NCBI GenBank assembly: GCA_011046135.1
Contig: DSBG01000111.1
Span: 1 to 48,185, forward strand
Source: Deltaproteobacteria bacterium
GTDB lineage: Bacteria; Desulfobacterota; Desulfomonilia; UBA1062
DNA: 48,185 bases
Direction: 5' to 3'
Below, piece by piece: positions 9,070 to 47,821 of the stretch. Every line of letters begins with the position of its first letter. The stretch's first letter is position 1. Below the pieces are notes generated by a model that did not search any database, was not told the origin of the DNA, and saw only the letters and a list, made by a program, of their open reading frames with translations. Made by a program: the position numbers and the translations under genes.

Positions 9070-9085
9070 AACTCGGAGGTCTTCC

Positions 9086-10372: not shown

Positions 10373-10375
10373 ACA

Positions 10376-10411
10376 GGGAAAAGAGTTCCCTCCACACGGA
10401 ACACTTTTCCC
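10376..10411 (+). terminator. Strong hairpin after mtaD
   Basis: GGGAAAAGaGTTCC (10376-10389) pairs with GGAACaCTTTTCCC (10398-10411) around an 8-nt loop, with a single A-A mismatch. It starts 3 bp after the mtaD stop. No T-run follows, so it may be a rho-dependent terminator element or a transcript-end stabiliser rather than a classic intrinsic terminator. Confidence 0.5.
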
Positions 10412-10514
10412 CTCGTTGCCGGATTCATCACAGAAAAAAGCACGGGTTATCCCTCTGGCAGGCTCCTTGCATCGACGTAAAGCACCATAAACGAGATGCC
10501 GATAAGGATGGCGT

Positions 10515-25982: not shown

Positions 25983-26867
25983 ATGGAAGAACATCCATCA
26001 TCGTCAACTCCCTCCGAACTGTTTCTGTCGTGGATAAAAGCAGCTCAGCAGTTCTGGGGTCCCTTGACAGGGATGCAACCAGAGAACATATCAGAAACAG
26101 AAACAACCCCGAATGGTGCACGCCGTCTTCCCCAGGATGCCCTCATGACGATCCTCAAGTCATGGGGGACCCTCACGAGCGCCATGACCGAACCCTCTTC
26201 ATTGGATTCAGTGTCCCGGTCCCTTTCCCTGATGCCTGATTTCGTCATGAAGGTCTTTCAGTCAAGCCTTGGGAGCTATATGAAACTCCAGGAGCAGCTG
26301 CTCGCCAAGACACAGAATCTCGGGAAAGAGGCCGAGGCCTACCGCTTCGACAACCTTGATCAGGATTCACTGAAGGCGTGGTCTGATTTCTACAAATCAG
26401 AAATACGCCAGTATCTCAACATCCCCCAACTCGGGCTCACGCGGTTCTATCAGGAGCGCATGAACCAGACCATTGACAAGTTCAATGTATTCTCAACCTC
26501 CTTGGCTGAATTCATGCAGGTTCTCTCTCTCCCCTTTGAGAAAAGCATCAAGGTCATGCAGGACAAGATAGAAGATCTCACCCGGGAAGGGAAGCTTCCC
26601 GAGGACCCCCAGGAATATTATCGCATGTGGATCAAGATCCTTGAGGGACATTTCATGACGTTGTTCAAGTCTGAGGAGTATACCAGGGCAATGGCAGAGA
26701 CCCTGGGAAACCTCGAGGAGTTTCTCTATTCAAGGAACAGAATCATCGAGGATTCCCTCCAGTCGCTCCCGATTCCCTCAAACAAGGACATGGATGATCT
26801 CTATCAGGAACTCTACCAGATCAAAAAACGGATAAAAAACCTGGAAAAAAATACCGCTAACCCGTAA
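25983..26867 (+). CDS. phaE: Class III PHA synthase subunit PhaE
   Basis: A 294-aa partner of PhaC in class III polyhydroxyalkanoate synthase, which polymerises short-chain (R)-3-hydroxyacyl-CoA. The PhaE domain is clear in the second half: RFYQERMNQTIDKFNVF, EYYRMWIKILEGHFMTLFKSEEY, and a terminal coiled coil (MDDLYQELYQIKKRIKNLEKN). The N-terminal third is variable. Ribosome site GAGGTGA lies 3 bp before the ATG. phaC starts 21 bp after its stop. Confidence 0.93.
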   Translation: MEEHPSSSTPSELFLSWIKAAQQFWGPLTGMQPENISETETTPNGARRLPQDALMTILKSWGTLTSAMTEPSSLDSVSRSLSLMPDFVMKVFQSSLGSYMKLQEQLLAKTQNLGKEAEAYRFDNLDQDSLKAWSDFYKSEIRQYLNIPQLGLTRFYQERMNQTIDKFNVFSTSLAEFMQVLSLPFEKSIKVMQDKIEDLTREGKLPEDPQEYYRMWIKILEGHFMTLFKSEEYTRAMAETLGNLEEFLYSRNRIIEDSLQSLPIPSNKDMDDLYQELYQIKKRIKNLEKNTANP

Positions 26868-26888
26868 TCGTTGCAGGGAGGAGTCCGC

Positions 26889-28103
26889 ATGGAGAAACCG
26901 AAAATCCCCGTCGATACTATCCTTCGTCACCTGGCTCAGGATGCCGACAGGGTGCAGGAACGCGCACAGAAGGCCTCCGACATCCTGCTGAGTCCCCTGA
27001 GCACCGAGATAGCAAGCACCCCCTATGAGATCGTGTACCAGGAAGACCGGGTGAAACTGAAGCACTACCTCCCGGTGAGGGAGCCGTCAAAAGACATTAC
27101 AAGGCCGCTCTTGGTCGTGTATGCCCTCATCAACCGCGAGACCATGCTGGATCTGCAACCGGAACGGTCGGTTGTGAAGAACTTCCTGGAAGCGGGGATC
27201 GACCTCTACATGATCGACTGGGGATACCCCTCCAGGAAAGACAAGTTTCTCACCATCGATGACCACGTCAACGGGTACATGGACAACATCGTGGAGTACA
27301 TACGCAGCAAGAACAAGGTGGACAAGATCAACCTCATGGGCATCTGCATGGGGGGAACCTTCTGTGTGATCTATTCAGCCCTGCACCCGGAGAAGGTGAA
27401 AAACCTGGTGACCACGGTGTGCCCGACAAACTTCGATACAGAAGAAGGCTTACTCCACATCTGGATGAAAGATGTCGACGTCGACCGGATGATCGATGCC
27501 TTCGGAAACATGCCGGGGGACCTCATGAATTTCGGGTTCCTGCTGCTGAACCCCGCCCGGTTGATGATCGACAAGTACGTGGGATTTTTTGAGAACATGG
27601 ACAATAAGTCATTCGTGGAAAATTTCATACGCATGGAGAAGTGGATCTTCGACAGCCCCGATGTCCCCGGAGAAACCTTCAGGCAATTCGTGAAAGACTG
27701 CTACCAGAAAAACCTCCTGATCCAGAGCAAACTGATGGTAGGCGGAAAACGGGTTGATCTGAAAAAACTCACCATGCCGCTGCTCAACATCTACGGACAG
27801 TACGATCACCTGGTTCCTCCTGGAGCAGCCAACAAGATTACAGGCAAGGTGGGAAGCAAGGATACCGAGGATGTCTGTCTCGACACGGGGCATATCGGTA
27901 TCTATGTCAGCTCAAAGACTCAGCGGGAATTCACGCCGAAAATTATTCAGTGGCTTGCGCACAGGGATGCCGATACCAGGGGCTCTCCCGAGAAGAAGGG
28001 CACCAGACCAAAGAAAGCCGCATCAGAGTCGAAGAAAGACGATATGCAGTGGAACAAAAGGATCGCTCGATTAAAGGAGAGGAGTCATGCCCGAGAAAAG
28101 TGA
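26889..28103 (+). CDS. phaC: Class III PHA synthase subunit PhaC
   Basis: A 404-aa alpha/beta-hydrolase-fold polymerase. The nucleophile Cys153 sits in GICMGG, the lipase-box variant of PHA synthases; the other triad members are the Asp of YGQYDHLVPP and the His of DTGHIGIYVS. IDWGYPSRKDKF is typical of class III. The last 45 residues (after WLAHRDAD) form a lysine/arginine-rich tail longer than usual for the family. The start at 26889 follows GGGAGGAG. The tail overlaps the GAF gene by 17 bp. Confidence 0.95.
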   Translation: MEKPKIPVDTILRHLAQDADRVQERAQKASDILLSPLSTEIASTPYEIVYQEDRVKLKHYLPVREPSKDITRPLLVVYALINRETMLDLQPERSVVKNFLEAGIDLYMIDWGYPSRKDKFLTIDDHVNGYMDNIVEYIRSKNKVDKINLMGICMGGTFCVIYSALHPEKVKNLVTTVCPTNFDTEEGLLHIWMKDVDVDRMIDAFGNMPGDLMNFGFLLLNPARLMIDKYVGFFENMDNKSFVENFIRMEKWIFDSPDVPGETFRQFVKDCYQKNLLIQSKLMVGGKRVDLKKLTMPLLNIYGQYDHLVPPGAANKITGKVGSKDTEDVCLDTGHIGIYVSSKTQREFTPKIIQWLAHRDADTRGSPEKKGTRPKKAASESKKDDMQWNKRIARLKERSHAREK

Positions 28104-33666: not shown

Positions 33667-34719
33667 CTAGGCAGCCTCCACCGCTTTCCGAGAACTCCCA
33701 GTGCGCGATAAGATAAAACTCAGCGCCTCGGGCCAGGAGTGCTTCAGGGAATTCCTTCCCATAAATACCGAGATGTGCCCTGCCTGGGGGATGACAACCT
33801 TGAAAATGTCCTCGTCGGCAGTGGAGATATGGTCCCGCAGGTTGAAGAGCTGTGGAACGAGGGTGATGTCATCCTTTTCTCCTGCCAGCATTGCAACGGG
33901 GCAGTCAATAACTCCGAGATCTACGGGCTTGCCCAGAACCACGAGCTCTCTCGTGATGAGCTGGTTTTTCATGAAGAGTTTTCGAACTGCCTGCAGGTAC
34001 CACTTGCCCGAGATGTTCTGGGTATATTCGTACCAAGTCTGAAATTTTTTCACGCGATTAACGAAGTCCTTGTCCCTGACATTGATCCACAGGTTTATAT
34101 AGTCGCTGCAAAACCTCTCATATGAATTCAGAATCTTCCAGCCCATGAGCATGTATTCACCAGGTATTGTCCCTCCACCCAGGGCGACCAGCGTCCGATA
34201 GAAGTTGATCGGCATCTTCTGAACCACCTCCTGGATCTTGCCTCCTCCTGCGGTGAAGTCAATGGGTGCCGCAGCGAGGATGAGGGCAGATACATCCATG
34301 GGATACAACGCAGAATAGATTGCGCAGAGCCATCCCCCCTGGCACAGCCCAACGAGAAGAGCAGGCCCGCCAACCTCGTTGACGCAGATTCTGAGCTGTC
34401 GAACCAGGTCATCGATGGATTCATCCCTGCGCAAGGGTGTGCTTGGTTTCCACTCAATGGCATAGACCGGGGACTCGGTCAGCTCCAGACATGTCTGTAC
34501 CAGGCTCTGGTCCTGATCATAATCCGCGATACTCGAGTGGTGCCCTGCCTGGGGAGGAACGATAAGAAGAGGAACGCCTGTTCGGCCATTGTCGAATTTC
34601 CTCAGGACTATCGCTTTGTCTTCATAGAGGATCGTGTTGGGAGAGAACCACTCGGGTGTTCTGCGGTAGGTTGCGGTGTTGATGAAACGGGCAATATCCA
34701 AGCAAGATGAAAGCATCAA
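33667..34719 (-). CDS. Third PhaC-like alpha/beta hydrolase
   Basis: A 350-aa protein with a PhaC-type nucleophile Cys126 in GLCQGG, an acid in LAGEKDDITLV and His in IPQAGHISVF. PLLIVPPQAGHHSSIADYD near residue 50 and YAIEWKPSTP resemble the substrate-binding strands of PHA synthases. It lacks the PhaE-type partner directly beside it. It may be a synthase paralogue, a thioesterase or an acyl-transferase; depolymerases normally use serine. It converges with phaR across 71 bp. Confidence 0.72.
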   Translation of the reverse strand: MMLSSCLDIARFINTATYRRTPEWFSPNTILYEDKAIVLRKFDNGRTGVPLLIVPPQAGHHSSIADYDQDQSLVQTCLELTESPVYAIEWKPSTPLRRDESIDDLVRQLRICVNEVGGPALLVGLCQGGWLCAIYSALYPMDVSALILAAAPIDFTAGGGKIQEVVQKMPINFYRTLVALGGGTIPGEYMLMGWKILNSYERFCSDYINLWINVRDKDFVNRVKKFQTWYEYTQNISGKWYLQAVRKLFMKNQLITRELVVLGKPVDLGVIDCPVAMLAGEKDDITLVPQLFNLRDHISTADEDIFKVVIPQAGHISVFMGRNSLKHSWPEALSFILSRTGSSRKAVEAA

Positions 34720-35033: not shown

Positions 35034-35798
35034 ATGAAAGAAATCATCATCATGCCGTGCCTTGATATGAAGGAAGGCAGGGTGGTCAAAGGTGTTCATT
35101 TTGTCGATATTCGTGATGCCGGCGACCCGGTGGAGCACGCTCGCTTCTATCAGGAAGAAGGGGCAGATGAGCTCGCGATCCTTGATATCGCTGCCACCCA
35201 GGAAAACCGCAAAACGAGAAGAGAGTGGGTACAAAAGGTCTCGTCTGTTATCGACATCCCCTTGACCGTCGGTGGTGGCATCTCCTCACTGGAAGATATC
35301 GACTTCATTCTCGAAGCAGGCGCCGACAAGGTCTCCATAAATACCGGTGCAGTGAGAAGACCTGATCTCATTCGCGAAGCTGCAGAAAAATTTGGTTCAG
35401 ACAGGATTACGGTAGCCATCGATGCCCGGAGAAATACCGTCCTTCCCTCTGGGTTTGAACTCGTTGTCTCCGGAGGAAACCTCCCCATCGCTCAGGATGC
35501 CATTCAATGGGCGAAACACTGTGAAGAACTTGGGGCAGGGTGTCTCCTTCCCACCAGCATGGATGGTGATGGCACACTCAAGGGGTACGACATAGCCTTT
35601 ACCAGGGCAATCGCTGATGCGGTAACTCTTCCTGTGGTGGCCTCCGGTGGAGCGGGAACCCTGGAGGACTTCTACACGGCCGTAACCGAAGCAAAGGCCC
35701 AGATCCTTCTGGCAGCCTCGGTCTTCCATTTCAGGACGTTCAGGATTAGTGAGGTGAAAGACTATCTGCACTCCCGAGGCATACCGGTCAGGCGGTAA
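35034..35798 (+). CDS. hisF: HisF, imidazole glycerol phosphate synthase cyclase subunit
   Basis: A 254-aa TIM barrel that, with HisH, forms imidazole glycerol phosphate and AICAR. Asp11 (MPCLDMKEG) and the second catalytic Asp in VAIDARRN are in place, with GGGISSLED and ASGGAGTLED phosphate loops. The start at 35034 has GGAAGGAG upstream and places Asp11 correctly. It stands away from hisBA and without hisH. Its last 11 bp overlap the convergent iron-sulfur gene. Confidence 0.95.
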   Translation: MKEIIIMPCLDMKEGRVVKGVHFVDIRDAGDPVEHARFYQEEGADELAILDIAATQENRKTRREWVQKVSSVIDIPLTVGGGISSLEDIDFILEAGADKVSINTGAVRRPDLIREAAEKFGSDRITVAIDARRNTVLPSGFELVVSGGNLPIAQDAIQWAKHCEELGAGCLLPTSMDGDGTLKGYDIAFTRAIADAVTLPVVASGGAGTLEDFYTAVTEAKAQILLAASVFHFRTFRISEVKDYLHSRGIPVRR

Positions 35799-36951
35799 GA
35801 GAATCAGCTACAATCTCTGAGATCTCCCTGACCTGAAGAACCTCTTCCAGGCCTTCAGCCTTCAGGGCATCGTCCAACATCCGGTAACACTGGGGACAGG
35901 AGACGGCCACGATCTGTGCCCCGGTGGATGCGGCGTCCCGGATGCGGACCCGGCTTGCCAGATCATGACCGGTCCCCAGGATATCCGTGAAGAAATTACT
36001 CCCGCCACCTCCGCAGCACAGGCTATTTTGCATATTCCTGTCAAATTCCACAAGCCTCAGCCCTGGGATGGCGTTCAGTATCGCCCGGGGTGTATAATAC
36101 TCCCCGTTCCATCTCCCGAGATAGCAGGGGTCGTGATATGTGACGGTTGTGTCGAGCTGTCCAGGGGCTAGGTCTTTACCCATAAGATCTCGGAGTATCT
36201 TGGTGTAGTGATATACCTGAAATCTCCCTCCATGGAGGGGATACACGGTTTTCATGACATGGAAGGAGTGTGGGGAGAGGGTGATGATCCTCCTGATCCC
36301 CTTGTCGGAGAAGACCTTGATATTCTGCTCGGCAAGATGCGTGGCGAGCCCTTCCTCTCCCGCCGCGGCCACGTCATTACCATCAGAAATCTCCTCATTT
36401 CCCAGGATCCCGAAGGAAATATGCGCCTTTTTAAAGAGCATGGCCACAGAGCGCGCCATCGCCTTTCCCAGGTCATCGTAAGACCCGACATCTCCTATGT
36501 ACAAGAGATATCGCTGGTCTGTATAGGGTTCGATATCAAGACCTTCGGCCCAGGCAGCCCTTTGCTCTGCCGGCAACCTGTAGGGATTCCCGCTGGTGGA
36601 GATGGCCTTGAAATAATCCCGTACCTGAGGAGGAATCGTACCCTGCTCCACCATGTCCTTGCGTGCCGCAATGAAGACATCCACGAGCTTGTCTTTGATG
36701 TATGGCAGGGCACAGGCTTCAACGCAGTTTTTACAGGTGACGCAGGAGTAGAGGATCTGGGAAAATCGGTGTCCTGCCTCGACATCCCCGTTAATCCAGG
36801 CCCTGATGAGCCACATCCTGCCGCCAGAAGAAAACGACTCGAAGCGATATTTCAGATAGGCAGGGCAGTTGAAATCCTGGTAATTCGAAGGAAACTTGCA
36901 CCATCCGCAGCGGAAACACCGGTGAAGGATATCGATATAGTCACGTTCCAT
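35788..36951 (-). CDS. CCG-domain iron-sulfur protein (HdrD/GlcF-like)
   Basis: A 387-aa soluble electron carrier. Two cysteine clusters near the N-terminus (CFRCGWCKFP...NCP and CVTCKNCVEACAL) should bind [4Fe-4S]. Two CCG domains follow: YHDPCYLGRWNGEYYTPR with SLCCGGGG, and VSCPQCYRMLDDAL. This is the arrangement of HdrD and of glycolate oxidase GlcF. Its start overlaps the stop of the FAD oxidase by 1 bp (TGATG), so the pair is probably one complex. Confidence 0.85.
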   Translation of the reverse strand: MERDYIDILHRCFRCGWCKFPSNYQDFNCPAYLKYRFESFSSGGRMWLIRAWINGDVEAGHRFSQILYSCVTCKNCVEACALPYIKDKLVDVFIAARKDMVEQGTIPPQVRDYFKAISTSGNPYRLPAEQRAAWAEGLDIEPYTDQRYLLYIGDVGSYDDLGKAMARSVAMLFKKAHISFGILGNEEISDGNDVAAAGEEGLATHLAEQNIKVFSDKGIRRIITLSPHSFHVMKTVYPLHGGRFQVYHYTKILRDLMGKDLAPGQLDTTVTYHDPCYLGRWNGEYYTPRAILNAIPGLRLVEFDRNMQNSLCCGGGGSNFFTDILGTGHDLASRVRIRDAASTGAQIVAVSCPQCYRMLDDALKAEGLEEVLQVREISEIVADSLTA

Positions 36952-38339
36952 CAGCTCACCTCCCAGTTCCCTGGGTTCATGATCCCCGCAGGATCCAGAA
37001 CTTCTCTGATCCGCTTCATGAGTGAGTACGTTCCAGGATCCATCTGCTTCAAGATGAGCTGCTGCCCCTGGACTTCCGCCTTCCAGGGGATGCCGCCGAG
37101 CCTCAGGGAGGCTTCGTTCGTATCCTCCAGGGCCATTTTTACCTTTTCCACCTCATCAGCATCAACACGGTTGAACGGGTAGGCAAAGAAGAACATGGCA
37201 CAGTGCCCTTTCCCTATGATCCGTGCACCGAGGGAATAGGTGATGCCATGCCGTGCCGTAATCTCCATCCCTGCCCGGCATGCATCAGGGATCCGCTCTA
37301 TGGGCATGATGGCGCCGACATACTCGAACCCACCCCCTCTCCTGACGTCGGCAAACTTGCTCAGGGCCTTCTGGGGGGCCTCCAGAAACCCTGTTTTCAT
37401 GTTCGGCGGCACCGGCATGAATCCGGATTCCTTAGTTTCATAGAGATCCTTGAGCACATCGCGGATGATCTTCTTCTTTAGCGCCATCTCATCTTCGGAA
37501 TTAGCCGTGATGTTGATGACCATCATCTGAAACCCGTTGAGATAATCGGGCTTCGGCGAGAGTGCGTAGTTGATGTCTTCTGCTGTCTCTGTGTTGATAA
37601 CGCGCGTGAGCACCTCCGGCGCAAGATCTATGTCTTCGGTCATATAGACCAGGACATCGTGCAGCTTTGGCCTCGGATAGAGCTTGATTCCCACCTTGGT
37701 GATCACCCCGGTAGTTCCGTTCCAGCCGAGAAAGAGGCCCACGAGATCGGGCAGCGGTGCCCGAGAAAACCAGTACGGGACGGTGGAGCACGATCCGAGC
37801 TTCACGACATCCCCATTCGAAAGTACTACCTCGAGGCCGGTCACCATCTCGGAGTGAAAGCCTCCCTGACTCTGAGAGAGGTGTCCTGATCCATGGATTG
37901 CAATGTTCCCGGCAATGGTTGCCGCCGGAGGGGCATCGGGCAGAGAATGCTTCAGGTGGGGGAAATTTTTCTTCAGGTAGGCATCCAGCATGCCCTGGGA
38001 GGTCCCTCCCTCCACCACGGCATAGTGGCTTTTCTCATTGATCTCCAGGATCCGGTTCATCCGTTTCATATCCAGGACGATGCCACCTTTCAGGGGAACG
38101 GAAAGTCCTGAGAGTACGAGACCGCCTCCCATGGGCACGACGGGGATCTGTTCTCGGGAAGCAAGCCGCAGAATCTCCTGAACCTCCTCCGTGCTCGACG
38201 GCATGACGACGCAATCGGGCATGTGCGGGTCCTGAACACCCTGATCGCGTGAATAGATATAGAGATCCTCGGGTTCATTCGTAACGTATTCGCTGCTGAC
38301 AATTTCCCTGATTCGGGAGAGCGTCTCATTAGTGAACAT
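36951..38339 (-). CDS. FAD-linked oxidase, GlcD/D-lactate dehydrogenase type
   Basis: A 462-aa flavoprotein with the PCMH-type FAD-binding domain (MPSSTEEVQEILRLASREQ, VVPMGGGLVLSG, AATIAGNIAIHGSGHLSQ) and a C-terminal substrate-cap domain (PIERIPDACRAGMEIT; DPAGIMNPGNW). Relatives oxidise glycolate, D-lactate or D-2-hydroxyglutarate and related acids. Start ATG 38339 is preferred to 38378 because it avoids overlap with the upstream gene and begins at the usual helix. Sandwiched between two iron-sulfur genes. Confidence 0.88.
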   Translation of the reverse strand: MFTNETLSRIREIVSSEYVTNEPEDLYIYSRDQGVQDPHMPDCVVMPSSTEEVQEILRLASREQIPVVPMGGGLVLSGLSVPLKGGIVLDMKRMNRILEINEKSHYAVVEGGTSQGMLDAYLKKNFPHLKHSLPDAPPAATIAGNIAIHGSGHLSQSQGGFHSEMVTGLEVVLSNGDVVKLGSCSTVPYWFSRAPLPDLVGLFLGWNGTTGVITKVGIKLYPRPKLHDVLVYMTEDIDLAPEVLTRVINTETAEDINYALSPKPDYLNGFQMMVINITANSEDEMALKKKIIRDVLKDLYETKESGFMPVPPNMKTGFLEAPQKALSKFADVRRGGGFEYVGAIMPIERIPDACRAGMEITARHGITYSLGARIIGKGHCAMFFFAYPFNRVDADEVEKVKMALEDTNEASLRLGGIPWKAEVQGQQLILKQMDPGTYSLMKRIREVLDPAGIMNPGNWEVS

Positions 38340-38353
38340 CACACCACCCCCTT

Positions 38354-39373
38354 CTACTGGCCCAGCGCCATGAGGCACAGGTCCGACATCATAACGGGAA
38401 TCATGCCTGCCTTCGCCACGGGCCCGGCGAGGGTCCAGAAGCAGAACGGGCAGTTGAAAACGCTGAACTGGGCACCGCTGGCCTTCATATCCTCAACGTT
38501 TTTCCTCTGGAGTTCTTCGGAGAGCTCGAATCTCTGTGCCGCCTCGGGCACACCTCCGCAGCACAGGGCATTGGAATATTCATACGTTCTCCTGGGTCGC
38601 TGGGCGCCTATGAGCTCGAAAATGTCATCCACGAAGTGGTCCGTTTCCGGACAGAGTCTGTTCGAACATGGACGCTGGTATGCCACCTTTACATTAAGGG
38701 GCTTGATATCGGTCTTCACCTCCAACAGAGCGTGATAGAGATAATCGAAGAGGTGGACCGGGGTGAAGGGAACCTCAATGCCAAAGGCCGGGGCCCATGA
38801 GGTGTAGGTTCCGTAACACTCGTCGTGGTAACAGATGAGCTCTCTGATTCCCGAAGGCGTGAGGTAATTGGTCATGATGTTCTCGATCATGCGGGGAAGC
38901 CTCTCCTTGATGGTGGAGTTCCTGGCGAAGTGGAGAAACATGAGGTTGCAGAAGATATCGCTTCCCTCGATGGTGGTTGCTCCTTCGAAGAGCTTTCCCC
39001 TGATGCCGCCCTTCATGATGGAGAAGAAGCACATGTCGATCACTGGGCGCCTCACCTCCTTGGGCTGGATCTTGCCCCGGGGGCCCATCATGACGACCTG
39101 GGATTTCTCGATGGGGATGGGAATGGGGTGGACGCCCAGTTTTTCCTGCTGTTCCACGATGTGGTAGAAGGGGTGGTTGCGGTACGGACAGTATTCCTCG
39201 CACGCGTAGCATGTCACGCACTGGGAGAGAATCGACGATTTCTCACCCCTGACCAGTGCGTCATGTTCTCTCTTTGCCTCGTCCAGGTCCATAGAAATGT
39301 ACTGGCACCTCATGATGCAGTCAACACTTGTGCACCGGAGACAGAGTTCTGGATCGAATACTAGCTCATACAT
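38354..39373 (-). CDS. CCG-domain iron-sulfur protein (HdrB/D-like)
   Basis: A 339-aa protein. Cysteines CLRCTSVDCIMRC and CVTCYACEEYCPY near the N-terminus suggest two [4Fe-4S] clusters. Later, YQRPCSNRLCPE with NALCCGGVPEA and FNCPFCFWTL form two CCG motifs. ELICYHDECYGTYTSWAP contributes a further conserved Cys. It is first in the three-gene operon with the FAD oxidase and the second CCG protein, presumably moving electrons to or from the flavin. The ribosome site GAGGAGGGAG is strong. Confidence 0.82.
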   Translation of the reverse strand: MYELVFDPELCLRCTSVDCIMRCQYISMDLDEAKREHDALVRGEKSSILSQCVTCYACEEYCPYRNHPFYHIVEQQEKLGVHPIPIPIEKSQVVMMGPRGKIQPKEVRRPVIDMCFFSIMKGGIRGKLFEGATTIEGSDIFCNLMFLHFARNSTIKERLPRMIENIMTNYLTPSGIRELICYHDECYGTYTSWAPAFGIEVPFTPVHLFDYLYHALLEVKTDIKPLNVKVAYQRPCSNRLCPETDHFVDDIFELIGAQRPRRTYEYSNALCCGGVPEAAQRFELSEELQRKNVEDMKASGAQFSVFNCPFCFWTLAGPVAKAGMIPVMMSDLCLMALGQ

Positions 39374-39769: not shown

Positions 39770-40675
39770 TTACTCACCGCTCAGAAATCCCGGCTCTGCA
39801 TACGTCGGGTTTGGATAGGAATAGAATCCTTGCTTTGTCTTGAATCCCAGAGATCCTTTGTCCACATACTGCTTGATAAAATCTGCATTGGCCTTCGCCT
39901 GGGGGTCTCCTGTCTTCTGTGCCCAGTACGAGGTGATGGACCAGACCGTGGAGAGTCCCACCTGGTCCATGATTCCGAAGGGCCCGATTGGTGTGTGCAT
40001 GATTCCCATCCACGACCGGTCGACGTCTTCGATACTGGCCACATTTCGGGATGCGAGGGTGAGAGCCGAAAAGAACAGACTCGAGAGCATGGTGTTAAAC
40101 ACGTAGCCGTTGTTTTCCTTTTTGAGCATGATCACTATCTGGCCAATACTCCTGGCAAAATCATGCACCAGACTTACCACTTCTTGTGCTGCCCCGGGGT
40201 GTGGCATGACATCCACCACGTTGGAGATCCTCACATCGTGAAAGTGGAGAGCGACAAATTTTTCCGGCCTCCCTGTATCCTTGGCAAACATCGAGGGAAC
40301 GAGCGTTGAGGTGTTGGTGGTGAAAATCGTGCGCTCGGGGCAGAGTTCATTGAACTGTGCAAAGACTGCACCCTTGAGCATGGGATCTTCGGGAACGGAT
40401 TCACTTACAATGTCTATATCCTGGGCAGCCTGAGCGGGATCATCCGTAGGGGATATCCGCTGCAGTATTGCTCCAGACTGTTCCTGGGTCAGTTTCCCCA
40501 TGGAAACAAACCATGTACCGAGCTTTCCGATCCGTCTCATGGCTTTCTCGAGAATTTCTGCACTGATGTCGTAGAGCACGACCTCATACCCGTGCATGGC
40601 GCAGAGGAATGCAATCTGCTGTCCCATGGTCCCTGCACCGAGGATGAGCACCCTCCTGATATCTTCGATCTTCAT
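39770..40675 (-). CDS. 3-hydroxyacyl-CoA dehydrogenase
   Basis: A 301-aa NAD-dependent enzyme of beta-oxidation. The N-terminal Rossmann motif VLILGAGTMGQQIA (GxGxxG) precedes YDISAEILEKA. The catalytic region shows VALHFHDVRISNVVDVMPHPG (where HFFNP is common, here HFHDV) and ENNGYVFNTMLSSLFF. The HFHDV variant is a departure from the usual HFFNPxxxMxLVE active site. Strong ribosome site AGGAGGAAGG. Last gene of the acyl-CoA run. Confidence 0.85.
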   Translation of the reverse strand: MKIEDIRRVLILGAGTMGQQIAFLCAMHGYEVVLYDISAEILEKAMRRIGKLGTWFVSMGKLTQEQSGAILQRISPTDDPAQAAQDIDIVSESVPEDPMLKGAVFAQFNELCPERTIFTTNTSTLVPSMFAKDTGRPEKFVALHFHDVRISNVVDVMPHPGAAQEVVSLVHDFARSIGQIVIMLKKENNGYVFNTMLSSLFFSALTLASRNVASIEDVDRSWMGIMHTPIGPFGIMDQVGLSTVWSITSYWAQKTGDPQAKANADFIKQYVDKGSLGFKTKQGFYSYPNPTYAEPGFLSGE

Positions 40676-40724: not shown

Positions 40725-40759
40725 GAAGACATGTCTACAGTCTGTGCAGACACGTCTTC
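40725..40759 (-). other. RNA hairpin between the SDR and dehydrogenase genes
   Basis: On the minus-strand transcript GAAGACGTGTCTGC pairs along all 14 positions with GTAGACATGTCTTC (two G-U pairs) around a 7-nt loop, overlapping the SDR stop codon. On the plus strand the same two pairs would be A-C mismatches, so selection appears to act on the minus-strand RNA. No T-run follows, making an intrinsic terminator unlikely; processing or stabilisation is possible. As DNA it holds AGACATGTCT and AGACACGTCT, 21 bp apart. Confidence 0.6.
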
Positions 40760-41522
40760 ATGCCAGCGCACCACCATCCACCACAAAGCACGCCCCTGTG
40801 GTGAAGGAAGCGGCATCGGACACGAGATAGATCACGGCTCCGGCTATCTCCCTGGGGACTGCATGACGCGCCATGGGAATCATCTTGATGGCGTAATCGT
40901 AGATCATCTCATTGTTCATGATTGCCTGGGAAAAGTGGGTGTCCACCAGACCGGGAAGAATGGCATTCACCCTGATGTTTTTCGGTGCAAGCTCCTTGGC
41001 AAAGGCCTTGGTCATAGAGATGATTCCCGCCTTTGTCATGGAGTATATCCCCTGGAGAAGAGCCGGCTTTACACCGTTGATAGACGATACGTTCACGATG
41101 GCACCTCCCCCGGAGTCATTCATGAGCCGGGCTGCGTGCTGGGTGATGAAGAAGGGACCCTTGAGGTTCACGTCAAAGGTTTTGTCCCAGATCCCCTCAT
41201 CGGCACCGAGCATTTCGCCGAAGTAGGGATTCGTCCCCGCATTGTTTATGAGGATATCAAGCCTTCCATAGCGGTCTTTCACCCGGGCGAACAACGCGTT
41301 GATCTGGTCAAGATCGCCCACATGGCAGGCAACAGCCTCAGCCTTCCCGCCACGGGATGAAATCTCGTCCACCACCTTCTGCAGCGCATCCGCCTTCCTG
41401 CTCACGAGGATGCACTGTGCGCCGTAATCTGCCAGGGAAACCGCTATGGCCTCTCCAATCCCTCTGCTTGCTCCGGTTACCAGTGCAACCTTCCCATCGA
41501 GGGCAAAATCGATCTTATCCAT
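40758..41522 (-). CDS. SDR family oxidoreductase
   Basis: A 254-aa short-chain dehydrogenase. TGASRGIGEAIA is the cofactor loop, NNAG follows, and the catalytic Ser-Tyr-Lys is NVSSIN..YSMTKAGI. Members reduce 3-ketoacyl or related keto groups using NAD(P)H. The ATG at 41522 is chosen because AAGGAG lies 6 bp before it; the open frame continues far upstream but overlaps the kinase. Genomic context resembles LvaD, which reduces 4-ketovaleryl-CoA. Confidence 0.85.
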   Translation of the reverse strand: MDKIDFALDGKVALVTGASRGIGEAIAVSLADYGAQCILVSRKADALQKVVDEISSRGGKAEAVACHVGDLDQINALFARVKDRYGRLDILINNAGTNPYFGEMLGADEGIWDKTFDVNLKGPFFITQHAARLMNDSGGGAIVNVSSINGVKPALLQGIYSMTKAGIISMTKAFAKELAPKNIRVNAILPGLVDTHFSQAIMNNEMIYDYAIKMIPMARHAVPREIAGAVIYLVSDAASFTTGACFVVDGGALA

Positions 41523-41631: not shown

Positions 41632-42699
41632 TCACAACGATGGTTTTTCAAGAATCTCTCGTGCTGATTTTTCAAGAATGTGTACGGCGAATACGAGCAT
41701 CTTGAAGCGCTGATCCTTTGTTTGGCCGTGATAAAATCGGTAATAAATCTGCTGGGCAATAACGGCCAGCCTAAACAGACCGAAGCAGTAGTAGAAATCA
41801 AATGAGTCAATGGAGATCCCGGCATTGTCAGCATAGCGCCTGATCAGCTCATCCCGGGTGAGGGCTCCAGGCAGATTGGTTGCCAGCATTCGCATTGCCT
41901 GCACCTCCTCGGGGTCATCAGCCTGCACCCAGTATGCCAGAGAATTTCCGAGATCCATGAGCGGGTCTCCGATGGTCGCCATCTCCCAGTCAAGTACGCC
42001 GATGATTTTCAGGGGATCATCAGAATTCAGGACCACATTATCGAATTTGAAATCGTTATGTACGATGGACGGCCTCTTGCAATCCGGCGGCATGTTTCCA
42101 TGGAGCCATGTCATCACCTCCTCGAAGGTTGGAGAATCCGGTGTCCATGCCCCCCGATAACGGTCTGACCATCCTTCAACCTGCCTCTTCACATATCCTT
42201 CCGGCTTTCCGAATCCTTCAAGACCGACAGCCGCGTAATCGACGGAGTGGAGTTCGTAATGGACATCCACAAGCCGCTCACACAGCGCCCTCATCTGAGA
42301 TGGGCTGAGGACGAGGCCCTGTGGGAGATCCTTCCTGAGAATGATTCCATTGATTCGCTCCATCACGAAGAAGGGGCATCCCATAACGGACTCGTCCTCG
42401 GAGAAGATCAGAGGCCTGGGGCAGTAAGGGAAAACCGGGTGCAGTGCGCTGAGAATCCGGTACTCTCTCCCCATATCATGGGCGCTCTTCGCCTTTCTTC
42501 CGAAGGGCGGTCTCCTTAACACGATATCCTTCTCGCCAATCTTAATGAGGTAGGTGAGATTCGAGTAGCCGCTGGGAAATTGTTCCACCACGAGTTTGCC
42601 TGTCAGTCCAGGTATGTGATCTTTCAAGAACGATTCTACAATCTGCAGATCCAGTTCTTCTCCTTGCCTCACGCGAGTCGGCTTATCACGCACGTCCAT
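41632..42699 (-). CDS. APH-type phosphotransferase of the ACAD10/ACAD11 (LvaA) group
   Basis: A 355-aa kinase of the aminoglycoside/choline kinase fold. FPSGYSNLTYLI, VLRRPPFGRKAKSAHDMGREY and PFFVMERINGIILR match the kinase domain of ACAD10/11. Catalytic HNDFKFDNVVLN and metal-binding DWEMATIGDPLMDL are intact. Characterised members phosphorylate hydroxyacyl-CoA: LvaA acts on 4-hydroxyvaleryl-CoA. ATG 42699 has ribosome site GGAGGAG; an ATG at 42723 is weaker. An antibiotic-resistance role is unlikely in this context. Confidence 0.82.
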   Translation of the reverse strand: MDVRDKPTRVRQGEELDLQIVESFLKDHIPGLTGKLVVEQFPSGYSNLTYLIKIGEKDIVLRRPPFGRKAKSAHDMGREYRILSALHPVFPYCPRPLIFSEDESVMGCPFFVMERINGIILRKDLPQGLVLSPSQMRALCERLVDVHYELHSVDYAAVGLEGFGKPEGYVKRQVEGWSDRYRGAWTPDSPTFEEVMTWLHGNMPPDCKRPSIVHNDFKFDNVVLNSDDPLKIIGVLDWEMATIGDPLMDLGNSLAYWVQADDPEEVQAMRMLATNLPGALTRDELIRRYADNAGISIDSFDFYYCFGLFRLAVIAQQIYYRFYHGQTKDQRFKMLVFAVHILEKSAREILEKPSL

Positions 42700-42726
42700 T
42701 GCATCTCCTCCTTTGCTGTTCACAGA

Positions 42727-43419
42727 TTACAGAAAAAGATAGCTTTCCATGAGATTCGTGATGAAAACTGAATAGTTCTCCACCGTGACATCTCTTTTGG
42801 CATACTTCCATCTCTTGAGATACCAGTCCTGGAGCAGCGCCTTGAGTGCAGCACCGGCCAGATCGACATCCACTTCGCGAAACAGACCCTGTTCACACCC
42901 GCTCGAAATGATGTCGACGAAGATCTTCTCGGTGAAGAGCTCGGTCTCGATGGCCTTTCGATGCTGGGTTTTCGAGAGATTCTTGGTCTCCATGTAAGAA
43001 AAGTAAAACCATGGCTGCATGATTTCACTCAGGAACAGGTGGGCTTCAATGGCCCTCTTGAGCCTCGCACGCGGATTATCAATGCCATCAACCTGATCCA
43101 GGAGGACTCTGGCAGTAACCATCCTGCCTTGATGTGTTATCATATCCAAGAGTTCATCCTTGCTTGAAAAGTAGGTGTAGAGGGCACCCATGCTCAACCC
43201 GGCTTCAGCGCTCAGATCCCTCATGCTCATGGCGGCAAAGCCCTTTTCGTTGCTGATGGCGAGAGCGGCATTGAAAATCTTCACGAGATTCTTCACCGCA
43301 ACCCCTTCTTTTTTGATTTTTATTCCACGGGGATTCTCGAGGAAAAGATCCCTGCACATATCTTCCATGGAAAGACTCACAACGCGTTTGAACGTCTTGA
43401 AATCAATGTCTTGTTCCAT
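42727..43419 (-). CDS. TetR family regulator
   Basis: A 230-aa regulator. The helix-turn-helix is ISNEKGFAAMSMRDLSAEAGLSMGALYTYFSSKDELLDMI, preceded by about 40 residues that are unusual in length. The C-terminal ligand domain is variable. It lies between the dehydrogenase and the kinase on the same strand, 3 bp from one and 27 bp from the other, so it probably regulates its own operon in response to an acyl-CoA. Confidence 0.9.
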   Translation of the reverse strand: MEQDIDFKTFKRVVSLSMEDMCRDLFLENPRGIKIKKEGVAVKNLVKIFNAALAISNEKGFAAMSMRDLSAEAGLSMGALYTYFSSKDELLDMITHQGRMVTARVLLDQVDGIDNPRARLKRAIEAHLFLSEIMQPWFYFSYMETKNLSKTQHRKAIETELFTEKIFVDIISSGCEQGLFREVDVDLAGAALKALLQDWYLKRWKYAKRDVTVENYSVFITNLMESYLFL

Positions 43420-43422
43420 GGG

Positions 43423-44631
43423 TTATCGAACGATCTTCCCTTCGTATTCCCTGAGTATTCTCCTGGCAACGGCCATCTTGTGAACCTCATCCGCGCCGTC
43501 GTAGATGCGTGCCGCGCGTTCGTGGCGATAGAGAAATGAGATGATGGTATCATCCGTCATACCGAGACCACCGTGGACCTGGAGCGCACGGTCGATCACC
43601 TTCTGCATCACTCCGGCAACGAAGAACTTGATGAAGGAGATGTCGAACCTGGCTGATTTGGCGCCGAGTTTTTCGATTTTCCAGGCGGCGTTCAGGGTCA
43701 TCAGGCGTGCCGCCTGGATCTCGGCAGCACTTTCCGCAATCCAGGACTGGATAATCTGCTTGGTCGCCAGGGTCTTCCTGTCCGGGGAAATGATCCGGGA
43801 CACAGCCCTTGAGCACATGAGATCGAAGACACGGTTGCAGATACCGATCCAGCGCATGCAGTGGTGGATTCTGCCGGGCCCCAGACGCTCCTGTGCAATG
43901 ACAAACCCGTGCCCCTCGGGTCCCAGGAGATTTTTCTGCGGCACCCTGCACGACTGGAAGAGGACCTCTCCGTGGGAGAAGTAATCGTCTCCTGCGTGCC
44001 CCATAACGGAAATATTCCGCACAAGATTGAATCCCGGGGTGTCCGTGGGAACGATGATCATGCTTGCCTGCAGATAGGGAGAGGCCTCCGGGTTGGTTAC
44101 TGCCATGACGATGGAGAACGTTGCACCGTCGGCTGCAGTAGAATACCACTTCTGGCCATTGATGACATAGTCATCCCCGTCTTTGACCGCGGTGGTGTCC
44201 ATCATAACCGGGTTGGATCCGGGCATCTCCACCTCGGTCATGGAGAAACAGCTTCTAATTTTTCCTTCAATCAGGGGCCGCAGATAGGTTTCTTTCTGCT
44301 CCTTGGTTCCATGCAGGTGAAGAATCTCGATGTTTCCTGCGTCCGGGGCATGGCACCCGAATACATAGTGTCCGATGGGTGTTCTCCCAAGAGATTCTGA
44401 TACCAGTGCATGTTCAACGAGGTCCAGACCCATCCCCCCGTATTCCTTCGGGTGGTTGGGCGCCCAGAGTTCCATCTTTTTCACCATGTCTCGTTTTTCC
44501 TGAAGGACAGGCAGCATACTCTTGAAACTCTTATTCAGGAATTCAGGCTCAAGGGGTAACAGCTCTTTTTCTACAAATTCGTCGATCATCTCCAAAATGA
44601 TTTTCATCTTCTCCGGAACTTCGAAATCCAT
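43423..44631 (-). CDS. Acyl-CoA dehydrogenase of the ACAD10/ACAD11 (LvaC) group
   Basis: A 402-aa FAD flavoprotein. FSMTEVEMPGSNPVMMDT and YVINGQKWYSTAAD are normal ACAD segments. RLGPGRIHHCMRWIG is the ACAD10/11 signature, and the C-terminus has QVHGGLGMTDDT and YDGADEVHKMAVAR. ACAD11-type enzymes act on 4-phospho-hydroxyacyl-CoA made by an attached or adjacent kinase, eliminating phosphate to give enoyl-CoA. Here the kinase gene is two positions downstream rather than fused. Confidence 0.88.
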   Translation of the reverse strand: MDFEVPEKMKIILEMIDEFVEKELLPLEPEFLNKSFKSMLPVLQEKRDMVKKMELWAPNHPKEYGGMGLDLVEHALVSESLGRTPIGHYVFGCHAPDAGNIEILHLHGTKEQKETYLRPLIEGKIRSCFSMTEVEMPGSNPVMMDTTAVKDGDDYVINGQKWYSTAADGATFSIVMAVTNPEASPYLQASMIIVPTDTPGFNLVRNISVMGHAGDDYFSHGEVLFQSCRVPQKNLLGPEGHGFVIAQERLGPGRIHHCMRWIGICNRVFDLMCSRAVSRIISPDRKTLATKQIIQSWIAESAAEIQAARLMTLNAAWKIEKLGAKSARFDISFIKFFVAGVMQKVIDRALQVHGGLGMTDDTIISFLYRHERAARIYDGADEVHKMAVARRILREYEGKIVR

Positions 44632-44663
44632 ACGCTCCTCCTTTTTTGGGGTTCTCGGTATCC

Positions 44664-45374
44664 TTACCGATAGGTGATCACGCCTGGGTCTTTGGCGAGC
44701 TCAAGGTGTGCGATGGAATTGAACCCTGCAAGCGTGATCCGATCGGCTTTGTACATGTAGCGCGTGTAGGAAGTGTTGATGATCTGCCAGTTGAGCCTCA
44801 TGGCCATCTCTCCAGAGATGCCCAGCACTGAGACCAGGGAAGCAGCGATGGGCCCTCCCGACGTAAAGGCCACAATCGTTTTTCCCCTGCCGTTGATCCG
44901 TATGATCTGCTTCAGCGCCCGTGAGATGCGATCGACAAACGCCGACCACTGTTCATGTCCGGGGGTGGCATGGTTGCCCGACACCCACCTGAGCATTGCT
45001 GCCTCAAAGACGCGCTTGAAGGATTCTTTATCTTTGTACATCCTTTCCAGATCGTCATGCAGGCTCGGATCATCTTCAGCCATGGCAGGAAACAGGTCAG
45101 TCACGATGGCAGAGGTTTCGTATTCATTCAGTTCATCGAGGAGCTCAAGATCGGGAAGCATCTTTCCCTGAGCTTGGTACAGGCTATAGAATTCCTGAGC
45201 CGTCGCCTGCTGTCGGGAAAGGGCCCCTGAATACAAGGCATCTGGTGTCAACCCGGTATCGAGAAAGAATTGGGCAAGAATCCGCGATTGCTTCTTTCCC
45301 AGCGGCGAGAGAAGATCGTAATTATCCTGGCCAAAGGAGGCCTGCCCATGACGGACAAGGTAGATCATGCTCAT
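44664..45374 (-). CDS. Histidine phosphatase family protein
   Basis: A 236-aa phosphoglycerate-mutase-like phosphatase. The catalytic RHG is in YLVRHGQASFGQDNYDLLSPLGKKQ, and the second His appears in TIVAFTSGGP, where a Gly/Ser replaces the common HGG. It heads the ACAD-kinase-SDR operon, 32 bp before the dehydrogenase, and such phosphatases often occur beside ACAD11-like genes. The substrate is unknown; with the altered second motif (SGGP), full phosphatase activity should be verified. Confidence 0.8.
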   Translation of the reverse strand: MSMIYLVRHGQASFGQDNYDLLSPLGKKQSRILAQFFLDTGLTPDALYSGALSRQQATAQEFYSLYQAQGKMLPDLELLDELNEYETSAIVTDLFPAMAEDDPSLHDDLERMYKDKESFKRVFEAAMLRWVSGNHATPGHEQWSAFVDRISRALKQIIRINGRGKTIVAFTSGGPIAASLVSVLGISGEMAMRLNWQIINTSYTRYMYKADRITLAGFNSIAHLELAKDPGVITYR

Positions 45375-45418
45375 GCAGACACCTTACCTGGAGGAGAGTC
45401 GGGAGTCAAGCATATTAT

Positions 45419-45433
45419 GAGCGAACGCTCGTT
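45419..45433. promoter_or_regulatory. Palindrome in the divergent histidine-phosphatase/etfB region
   Basis: GAGCGAACGCTC (45419-45430) is a GAGCG-N2-CGCTC inverted repeat that overlaps AACG-N2-CGTT (45424-45433). It sits between two divergent operons of acyl-CoA and electron-transfer genes, next to TATTAT (45413-45418). It is a plausible operator for the TetR regulator encoded in the operon. Confidence 0.4.
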
Positions 45434-45520: not shown

Positions 45521-46306
45521 GTGAAGATCCTGGTGTGCATCAAGCAGGTGTGTGATTCGAGCGAGACGCTTGTGCATGATACAGACCCCCCGTGGGTTCG
45601 TCCGTCTCCTGCAACGGTATTCAGGATGAACCGTTTCGATGAATTCGCCCTGGAAGAAGCCCTGCTCATCGGGGAACGATTCCCGGGCACGGAGATTCAT
45701 GCCCTTTCCGTGGGACCGTCCCGGGTTTGCACGACCATCCGGAAGGCCCTTGAGATGGGCGCATCTCATGGGATTCACCTCTGCATCGAGAAGGAACTGT
45801 ACCTGAGCGGCGAGGACACCGCGTCAATCATCGCCGGATATGCACGCGACAAGGGCTATGATCTGATCTTAACCGGAATCATGTCTGAAGACACCATGCA
45901 CTGCCAGGTGGGACAATACCTCGGGGCTCTCCTGGTGCTACCCTGTATTACCTCGGTCATCTCTGAGGAGATCAGCCCTGATGATGCTCGTGTTGTAGTG
46001 GAACGCGAGATCGAATCAGGAAGAAGACAGGCGTTCCTGGTCAAGATGCCGGTTGTTCTCACCATCCAATCCGGAATAAACAGACCCCGATATCCCTCCC
46101 TGTCCAACGTACTCAGGGCACGATCACAGGACCTCGAGACCTGTGAGGCAGAACATCTCGGTTCACCTGCCTTCCGGCAGAAGATTGCAGCCATCAGGTA
46201 TCCGGATGCCGGGAAAAAAGGCACCTTCATCCAGGGTGATTCCCGACAAAAAGCACGAGAACTCTTATCCATCCTTCATGAAAAGTCTCTGCTCTCATGG
46301 CGATAG
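45521..46306 (+). CDS. etfB: Electron transfer flavoprotein subunit beta
   Basis: A 261-aa AMP/FAD-binding subunit. MKILVCIKQVCDSSETLV, then FRMNRFDEFALEEALLIGE and DLILTGIMSEDTMHCQVGQYLGALL (normal QxxDxxxxQVGxxLA pattern with H-C-Q here) are typical. It accepts electrons from acyl-CoA dehydrogenases as a heterodimer with EtfA. GTG at 45521 is the start, with GGAGAG upstream. The gap to etfA is 4 bp. Confidence 0.93.
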   Translation: MKILVCIKQVCDSSETLVHDTDPPWVRPSPATVFRMNRFDEFALEEALLIGERFPGTEIHALSVGPSRVCTTIRKALEMGASHGIHLCIEKELYLSGEDTASIIAGYARDKGYDLILTGIMSEDTMHCQVGQYLGALLVLPCITSVISEEISPDDARVVVEREIESGRRQAFLVKMPVVLTIQSGINRPRYPSLSNVLRARSQDLETCEAEHLGSPAFRQKIAAIRYPDAGKKGTFIQGDSRQKARELLSILHEKSLLSWR

Positions 46307-46310
46307 TACC

Positions 46311-47276
46311 ATGAACAGGAATATCATCATCATCGGCGAACACCACGAGGGAACGATTTCCCCGGGTACCTTGGAACTCCTCGATTTTTCCCGGGCGTTG
46401 GGTTCCCCCTTTCCGGAAATCATTCTGCTGGGAAGCGACATCTTCTCCCTTGCTGAAAACCTCGCAGAGAGGACCGGATGCGCTGTGACATTGATCAACG
46501 GGGAGCACCTGAATCTGTATAGCGCTGAACTCTACCAAAAGGCACTTCTCGAGGTTCTGCGTCCCAGGGACGAACGAACTCTCTGCATCGCCTTTTCTCA
46601 CACGTCCCTTGGGTTTGATCTCGCTCCCGCCCTTGCCCATGCGCTCCAGGCACCGTGCATTTCCAGTGTCGAGGACATCGAAGAATCTTCGTTTGTCAGA
46701 TCCATTTTTGGAGGAAAACTCCAGAGCGTGGTCACACCGCAAAATGGACCCGTCGTGCTCACCGTGCTTCCCGGAGCCTTTTCTCCTGATAGGACACCTC
46801 CAGAAAAAAGCGGCCACATGAGGATCGTGGACGTCTCTGTTGCGCCTGTCTCGATGATTCCTCAGGGAGAACGGGCATCGGAGTATCGCGACAGCGGGTT
46901 ACACGATGCGGATGTTATCGTTTCCGCGGGAAGGGGTATCGGGAAAAAGGAGAACCTTTCCCTTATCTCGGCTCTTGCCTCGCTGTTTCCCCGTTCTGCC
47001 CTTGGTGCCTCTCGCGCGGTATGCGACCTCGGATGGATGGAGTACCGACACCAGATCGGAACCACGGGACAGACCGTGTCCCCGAAGCTCTACATTGCCT
47101 GTGGCATATCGGGAGCGATTCAGCACACCTCGGGAATGAAAAACGCCCAGACCATCATTGCCATCAACTCAGATCCCAACGCTGCAATTTTTTCCGTTTC
47201 CCATTACGCCATCGTGGAGGATCTGCTGAGCTTTATTCCCGTTTTGATGGAAGAATACACCCATCCACCCGGATGA
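46311..47276 (+). CDS. etfA: Electron transfer flavoprotein subunit alpha
   Basis: A 321-aa FAD-binding subunit. The C-terminal ETF-alpha signature region reads GRGIGKKENLSLISALA, GASRAVCDLGWMEYRHQIGTTGQTVSPKLYIACGISGAIQHTSGM and INSDPNAAIFSVSHY. The start at 46311 (MNRNIIIIGEHHEG) is used because the open frame upstream overlaps etfB and is not homologous. Whether this ETF bifurcates electrons cannot be settled from sequence by eye. Confidence 0.93.
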   Translation: MNRNIIIIGEHHEGTISPGTLELLDFSRALGSPFPEIILLGSDIFSLAENLAERTGCAVTLINGEHLNLYSAELYQKALLEVLRPRDERTLCIAFSHTSLGFDLAPALAHALQAPCISSVEDIEESSFVRSIFGGKLQSVVTPQNGPVVLTVLPGAFSPDRTPPEKSGHMRIVDVSVAPVSMIPQGERASEYRDSGLHDADVIVSAGRGIGKKENLSLISALASLFPRSALGASRAVCDLGWMEYRHQIGTTGQTVSPKLYIACGISGAIQHTSGMKNAQTIIAINSDPNAAIFSVSHYAIVEDLLSFIPVLMEEYTHPPG

Positions 47277-47299
47277 TCGTGGGGGGTAACGGAGGATCT

Positions 47300-47821
47300 A
47301 TGGCTCTTTTTTCTTTTTTTGATAAAGTTCCCATTATTGGAGAAGGCTCCTGGGTAGCTCCCGGGGCACAGATCATTGGTGACGTGAGAATCGGCAAACG
47401 GTGCTGGATCGGACCAAGTGCAATTCTACGGGGAGATTTCGGCACCATCGATATCGGTGACGAGACTGCCGTGGAGGACGGGGTTGTGATCCACACTCCC
47501 TCGAGCATTACGATCGGGTGCAGGGTCGTCATCGGACACCTCGCAATGATCCACAACCGATCCATCGGAGACTACTCTGTCATCGGAATGAATTCAACCC
47601 TGGGAGATAATGCCCAGATAGGCAGTTGGGTGATCATCGCTGAGCATTCCCTAGTGAAGAAAAACCAGATCGTTCCTGATAATCGCCTCTTTGCCGGTGT
47701 TCCGGCACAAGACAAGGGAGAACTCACTGCGGCTCATCGGGACTACATGCTTGTTGGCAAGCAGATGTATGATAATCTTGTGGATCAGTACCTTCAGGGA
47801 GTCAGAGAGCTGGAACCTTGA
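47300..47821 (+). CDS. Gamma-class carbonic anhydrase family protein
   Basis: A 173-aa left-handed beta-helix built of hexapeptide repeats. The gamma-CA metal pattern is VVIHTP with VVIGHLAMIHNRSIGDYSVIGMNSTLGD (His of GHxxxxH). LRGDFGTIDIGDET contains the conserved Arg and Asp. YrdA/CaiE-like proteins share this fold and many lack proven activity. Ribosome site GGAGG at 47291-47295 fixes the ATG at 47300, 23 bp after etfA. Confidence 0.9.
   Translation: MALFSFFDKVPIIGEGSWVAPGAQIIGDVRIGKRCWIGPSAILRGDFGTIDIGDETAVEDGVVIHTPSSITIGCRVVIGHLAMIHNRSIGDYSVIGMNSTLGDNAQIGSWVIIAEHSLVKKNQIVPDNRLFAGVPAQDKGELTAAHRDYMLVGKQMYDNLVDQYLQGVRELEP

Follow-up and report, generated by a model that had tools for sequence, protein, structure and literature searches.

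A deltaproteobacterial operon with separate ACAD10/11-type kinase and acyl-CoA dehydrogenase genes, a phosphatase-like protein, and an adjoining EtfBA pair

Operon structure

The window analyzed here spans positions 1–48,185 of contig DSBG01000111.1 (assembly GCA_011046135.1) from a deltaproteobacterium-type genome of 2.92 Mb. It carries a minus-strand operon encoding a kinase and an acyl-CoA dehydrogenase (ACAD) that resemble, as separate proteins, the two enzymatic domains of mammalian ACAD10 and ACAD11. The first gene encodes a histidine-phosphatase-fold protein (HISP; 44664–45374; Pfam His_Phos_1) and is followed by the ACAD (43423–44631; Pfam ACAD N, M, and C domains), a TetR-family regulator (42727–43419; Pfam TetR_N and TetR_C_24), an APH-fold kinase (41632–42699; Pfam APH, 4.8e-51), a short-chain dehydrogenase/reductase (SDR) oxidoreductase (40758–41522; PRK07035, 400.9 bits against an NCBIfam cut-off of 373), and the 3-hydroxyacyl-CoA dehydrogenase HADH (39770–40675; PRK08293, 361 bits against an NCBIfam cut-off of 312), with successive gaps of 32, 3, 27, approximately 110, and 82 bases. 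The EtfB (45521–46306; Pfam ETF) and EtfA (46308–47276) subunits of an electron transfer flavoprotein (ETF) are encoded divergently on the plus strand, and a shared promoter region of 146 bases separates the starts of HISP and EtfB.

A preliminary description of this DNA, which quoted the range 41632–45374, had placed the kinase, TetR, ACAD, and HISP reading frames correctly. The core genes stand as given there, but the operon runs on through the SDR, just beyond that range, to HADH and possibly to an Fe-S/FAD-oxidase trio, and the divergent EtfBA had been left unconnected. The order HISP–ACAD–TetR–kinase is retained in most of approximately 30 relatives, including the position of the TetR gene between ACAD and kinase, and HADH lies behind the kinase or SDR in many of them. 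Since the order is kept in most relatives, the association of these genes is not a matter of chance.

Active-site residues of the kinase and the ACAD

Both proteins were related by sequence to ACAD11 structures and to solved bacterial homologues. The closest PDB relatives of the kinase were 9o56 (335 bits), 3dxp (176 bits), and mouse ACAD11 (8v3v/8v3u; approximately 170 bits), whereas viomycin kinase scored 26 bits, far below ACAD11; as far as this search tested it, no affinity to choline or antibiotic kinases appeared, such kinases having been left out of the kinase tree. Those of the ACAD were mouse ACAD11 (291 bits), human ACAD11 (2wbi; 290 bits), and 4hr3 (262 bits), with ordinary ACADs at 165 bits or less. 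The motifs reported earlier, FPSGYSN and HNDFKFDN in the kinase and GRIHHCMR in the ACAD, are all present, and the assignment of both proteins to the ACAD10/11 type was borne out by sequence, active-site residues, and trees.

Residues linked to the ACAD11 reaction (PMC12440821), including the HCMR motif that is essential in ACAD11, served as reference for both alignments. Column by column, the equivalents of R626, H634, M636, R637, and D753 were found in all 115 ACAD sequences and that of C635 in 114. The R626 equivalent, an Arg that precedes the HCMR His by eight residues, is R249 of the window ACAD, and the D753 equivalent, the catalytic Asp replacing Glu, is D378. The kinase alignment retained D220 and N225 in 89 of 90 rows and R176 in 85 of 90, and the window kinase has all three; the position of R86 was ambiguous. 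The contig-derived sequences were partly picked through the peptides GPGRIHHC and APDxGNxE, so that invariance within them is partly circular; R626, M636, R637, and D753 lie outside these patterns and are independent of the selection, as are the 30-odd relatives retrieved with only the kinase.

HCMR was found only in the window ACAD among approximately 30 ACAD loci of the genome. This uniqueness, the conserved gene order, and the relationship to ACAD11 common to both proteins make it hardly credible that an ordinary APH-fold kinase and an ordinary acyl-CoA dehydrogenase are chance neighbors here, even though both families are large.

Phylogeny of the kinase and the ACAD

Relationships were estimated with quick trees that carry SH-aLRT support only, in which 99* denotes the starred support level. 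The HCMR ACADs formed two clades with 99* each. One contained mouse ACAD11 and proteins from Actinomycetota, Bacillota, and proteobacterial plasmid clusters; the other contained the window ACAD and proteins from other deltaproteobacterial genomes, Bacteroidota, Chloroflexota, Planctomycetota, and Acidobacteriota. All HCMR proteins stood together, set apart from the ordinary, non-HCMR ACADs, with deep joins of 85–92, under the starred level. LvaC of the levulinate (lva) pathway is 62% identical to ACAD10 and 56% to ACAD11 (PMC11342911), compared with 42% between the window ACAD and mouse ACAD11, which suggests that LvaC sits in the ACAD11 clade. The ACAD of Pseudomonas citronellolis LA18T, reported as 78% identical to LvaC (PMC6692424), probably belongs to that clade as well, given this identity and that of LvaC to ACAD10/11.

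In the kinase tree, the window kinase grouped with proteobacterial kinases from ACAD–SDR–kinase–phosphatase clusters (99*), and another group (99*) was formed by mouse ACAD11, 3dxp, and kinases from alphaproteobacteria. Kinases adjoining LvaB (DUF6285) proteins, with L222, L225, L203, and L204 as proxies for the LvaA/LvaB type, fell far outside both groups. The proteobacterial sets combine a window-type kinase with an ACAD of the ACAD11 clade; kinase and ACAD thus seem, from their tree positions, to have been re-assorted. In the tested genomes that carry further ACADs of the window clade, DUF6285 was not found.

Three further observations concern individual loci. Distant kinases near DUF6285 genes in L203, L204, L221, and L223 had no adjoining HCMR ACAD; pairs of the LvaA/LvaB kind may thus act in different acyl-CoA pathways. 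Relative L046 carries a tandem kinase pair (8576–10883), whose copies share 72% and 73% identity with that of the window. The copy in L075 lies on a contig binned as Firmicutes (ADurb.Bin248) yet falls inside the deltaproteobacterial clade, which may reflect mis-binning or transfer.

Comparison with known systems and proposed route

The operon shares with the mammalian kinase–ACAD fusions ACAD10 and ACAD11 (PMC11342911, PMC12440821) both enzymatic domains, the D, N, and R residues of the kinase, and the HCMR motif, upstream Arg, and catalytic Asp of the ACAD. It differs from them in that the genes are split, the kinase belongs to another kinase clade, the ACAD to a sister clade, and a dedicated EtfBA is present. 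With lvaABCDE of Pseudomonas putida KT2440 it has in common a kinase, an ACAD, and an SDR, together with a putative 4-hydroxyacyl-CoA chemistry; unlike that cluster, it lacks LvaB, a ligase, and the LvaR-type sigma54 regulator and has TetR and a histidine phosphatase. No match to PF19802 (DUF6285) was obtained in the whole genome, and a scan of the operon genes gave no AMP-binding gene, in line with the absences of LvaB and ligase noted earlier. The lva-like reading of the preliminary description holds for the predicted kinase and ACAD chemistry. The operon nevertheless varies on lva rather than copying it: its ACAD lies in a sister clade, its kinase groups with proteobacterial kinases lacking an LvaB neighbor, and LvaB is missing. 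The lva genes of P. citronellolis LA18T come closer, comprising a kinase, a histidine phosphatase, an ACAD, and an SDR with no LvaB, although an LvaR-type regulator and an LvaE2 ligase lie nearby and no ETF is reported for the 11-kb region (PMC6692424).

From the observed gene content, gene order, residues, and trees, we infer the catalytic steps and, with them, anything said of chain length. The core route, from 4-hydroxyacyl-CoA through 4-phosphoacyl-CoA to 2-enoyl-CoA, is well supported by the active-site residues of the predicted proteins. The nearest PDB relative of the SDR is DHRS4, and a 58% identical SDR occurs in the Azospirillum cluster. The SDR, in the place of LvaD, would interconvert 4-oxoacyl-CoA and 4-hydroxyacyl-CoA, and the kinase, without an LvaB partner, would transfer the gamma phosphate of ATP to the 4-hydroxyl group of the acyl-CoA. 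In the HCMR ACAD, FAD would oxidize C2–C3, the phosphate would be expelled with the help of the extra Arg and the His, and the hydride would be returned, yielding 2-enoyl-CoA. This would be hydrated and then converted to 3-oxoacyl-CoA by HADH. A precedent for separate proteins is the LvaA/LvaC pair of B. pseudomallei, which stood in for the ACAD10 domains in vitro (PMC11342911). Taken as a whole, we consider it likely that the operon feeds 4-hydroxy (or 4-oxo) acyl-CoAs into beta-oxidation by phosphorylation and subsequent phosphate elimination.

Several points weigh against this interpretation. The window ACAD is merely 42% identical to mouse ACAD11 and lies in the clade sister to that of ACAD11, and we know of no characterized member of either the ACAD clade or the kinase clade of the window. 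An acyl-CoA ligase, a thiolase, and an enoyl-CoA hydratase are all absent from the operon, so that its gene content does not reveal the substrate. The conserved EtfBA is left unexplained and was unexpected, since no electron acceptor is required for turnover by ACAD10 and ACAD11 (PMC11342911, PMC12440821).

The kinase might instead accept another hydroxyacyl-CoA (5-hydroxy, aromatic, or with some other side chain), with the ACAD eliminating phosphate from that product. The lack of known characterized members in the two clades and the family assignment of the SDR would allow this, as PRK07035 does not define a substrate. We consider it quite improbable, because the phosphate-handling residues are invariant in both ACAD clades and elimination beside a C2–C3 double bond, as proposed in PMC11342911, requires the leaving group on C4. 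If phosphorylation and elimination at C4 proceed as outlined above, the recently solved reaction of human ACAD10/11 would extend to a large bacterial clade in which the components are separate, expressible proteins.

The phosphatase-like protein

HISP preserves most of a histidine phosphatase active site. Among rows with a letter at the position, the Arg and His of the RHG motif were found in 39/39 homologues, the second Arg in 40/40, and the Glu in 39/39. The second catalytic His, in contrast, is replaced by Ser (FTSGG) in all 40, and this Ser falls on the catalytic His column in alignments to 3hjg, 9mmh, and 5zkk. The AlphaFold model (pLDDT 92.4) was nearest to phosphoserine phosphatases and PhoE in Foldseek.

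A search with HISP alone in 274 gammaproteobacterial genomes returned 16 homologues, of which 14 adjoined a kinase and/or ACAD of the ACAD10/11 kind; by pattern, 15 of the 16 have Ser at the second His and the remaining one was not readable. Plasmids from Azospirillum, Ideonella, Pseudoalteromonas, and one Rhodobacteraceae bacterium also carry sets of ACAD, SDR, kinase, and histidine phosphatase. Such sets recur across Proteobacteria, and these recurrences together with the gammaproteobacterial neighborhoods establish HISP as a standing part of kinase/ACAD/SDR modules. The preliminary description had seen in the histidine phosphatase a possible sign of a divergent route. As a mark of a unique route HISP was rejected, because the same LvaB-less set is published for P. 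citronellolis and is widespread in alpha-, beta-, and gammaproteobacteria. A strict tie of HISP to one kinase clade, suspected from the kinase tree, was weakened by gammaproteobacterial sets with another kinase type (L260–L262).

Habe et al. suggested that the histidine phosphatase of P. citronellolis takes the phosphate off 4-phosphovaleryl-CoA, and its active site is left without comment in the available portion of their report (PMC6692424). Relative to that portion, which already describes the kinase–phosphatase–ACAD–SDR set without LvaB, the invariant Ser in place of the second catalytic His is new. Following their proposal, HISP would be a true enzyme that hydrolyzes 4-phosphoacyl-CoA or free 4-phospho acids and forms a real dephosphorylation branch. 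The invariant nucleophile His, both Arg residues, the Glu, and a fold nearest to phosphoserine phosphatases agree with this published suggestion, to which we nevertheless give somewhat less than even weight: the Ser is found throughout the homologues and the readable gammaproteobacterial proteins, and a full phosphatase next to the kinase would imply a futile ATP cycle.

With one of its two catalytic His residues gone, HISP may not be a working phosphatase. The HAD domain of ACAD10, which has lost one catalytic aspartate, shows next to no phosphatase activity and holds the kinase in check (PMC11342911); ACAD10 and the window thus each have a degenerate phosphatase partner, of HAD type and histidine type, respectively, and the parallel is suggestive. 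By this analogy, HISP would most likely hold down the phosphorylated intermediate, either through slow phosphatase activity or by braking the kinase without catalysis. A restraint of the kinase by HISP, in the manner of the degenerate HAD domain, would be one testable way in which cells may prevent the build-up of phosphorylated acyl-CoA.

The adjoining EtfBA

A dedicated EtfBA adjoins the operon in 29 of 30 loci (window included) in which the kinase is of window type and the upstream side is not truncated, a feature that is new here. The pair is usually divergent and is co-directional behind the kinase in two loci, L065 and L069. Outside the window clade it was found only in planctomycete L083 and in 0 of 43 other loci; for these counts, the loci regarded as untruncated and as clade members were set by hand. 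Set against approximately 30 ACADs, only three complete EtfBA pairs are encoded in the genome. In the cai/fix system of E. coli, ACAD genes likewise have a dedicated ETF, with ordinary ACAD chemistry and neither a kinase nor a phosphate intermediate. The same holds for the Ldh–ETF–Bcd cluster of Fusobacterium, which resembles the present locus in combining an ACAD gene with a dedicated ETF and an FAD-containing hydroxyacid dehydrogenase (PMC12630350).

Possible roles of EtfBA are the rescue of stranded FADH2, a net oxidation, a reduction fed by a GlcD-like dehydrogenase, or the following beta-oxidation cycle. Under the hydride-return mechanism proposed above, EtfBA would most likely drain or return electrons when the internal hydride return of the ACAD fails, or serve the ensuing enoyl-CoA cycle. 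EtfBA might alternatively be the physiological partner of the ACAD, in a net oxidation of 4-phosphoacyl-CoA to 2,4-dienoyl-CoA, phosphate, and reduced ETF, or with electrons arriving from the GlcD-like dehydrogenase through ETF. The near-constant adjacency, the co-directional loci, the rarity of EtfBA outside the clade, the few pairs in the genome, and the Fusobacterium chain as a precedent speak for such a partnership. The acceptor-free turnover of ACAD10 and ACAD11 and the occurrence of the GlcD-like gene in a minority of relatives speak against it, and ETF motifs do not separate the bifurcating from the canonical type; we regard it as possible, though on balance doubtful. Combined with a HISP pseudo-enzyme that gates the kinase, it would mean an ACAD wired to its own ETF, phosphate elimination tied to a net release (with 2,4-dienoyl-CoA as product) or uptake of electrons rather than a closed hydride loop, and a second, non-homologous invention of the HAD brake of ACAD10; we think this joint arrangement unlikely. 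Electron exchange between the dedicated ETF and the ACAD, if it occurs, would make the part of the flavin in phosphate elimination testable.

Regulation

A palindromic TetR-type operator candidate, CGAGCGTTCGCTC (45419–45431, assigned to neither strand), lies in the shared promoter region directly upstream of a TTGACT −35-like box. Its position is conserved: in most of the deltaproteobacterial relatives, a palindrome of the form GARCNNNNGYTC with A/T flanks precedes the start of HISP by approximately 53–55 bases. It was found in 24 of 36 upstream regions (L047 and L074 being one and the same contig), compared with 0.02 expected per region, and this conservation is new. The 13-base pattern had six matches in the genome, and the operon site was the sole intergenic one, the other five lying inside ORFs. 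With 14 matches for the reversed control, these hits give no evidence of a genome-wide TetR regulon.

The conserved palindrome and the TetR gene within the operon point to local autoregulation, possibly with co-control of etfBA. From the placement of this candidate operator we infer that the TetR protein is a probable repressor acting from 45419–45431, and the operon is probably substrate-inducible. Upstream of HISP (45374–45386), a −10-like TAAGGT ends 6 bases before the ATG and a clear Shine-Dalgarno sequence is absent; given this spacing and absence, the HISP-led transcript may be leaderless.

Neighboring genes

Behind HADH, after a gap of 396 bases, the minus strand encodes a GlcD/LctD-like FAD oxidoreductase (36951–38342; Pfam and NCBIfam) flanked by two Fe-S proteins with CCG domains (38354–39373 and 35788–36951; Pfam), of which the first may be an accessory electron carrier. 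A minority of relatives, for example L041, L043, L050, L053, L054, and L056, also have this putatively accessory trio (35788–39373 in the window) behind the operon.

A PhaE-like and PhaC-like polyhydroxyalkanoate synthase pair (25983–28103) and a PHB-depolymerase-like hydrolase (33667–34719) are also encoded in the window. We found no evidence for the link to storage polymer suggested earlier: the phaE/phaC-like genes lie approximately 8 kb or more from the cluster, with no sign of a connection to the operon.

On the plus strand, EtfA is followed by a gamma-carbonic-anhydrase/CaiE-like hexapeptide protein (47279–47821). Copies with 61–65% identity lie behind etfA in many relatives (L042–L056), a layout that recalls the divergence of cai and fix in E. 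coli. A 30% identical relative occurs near the Azospirillum cluster, and the family name was taken from that annotated record.

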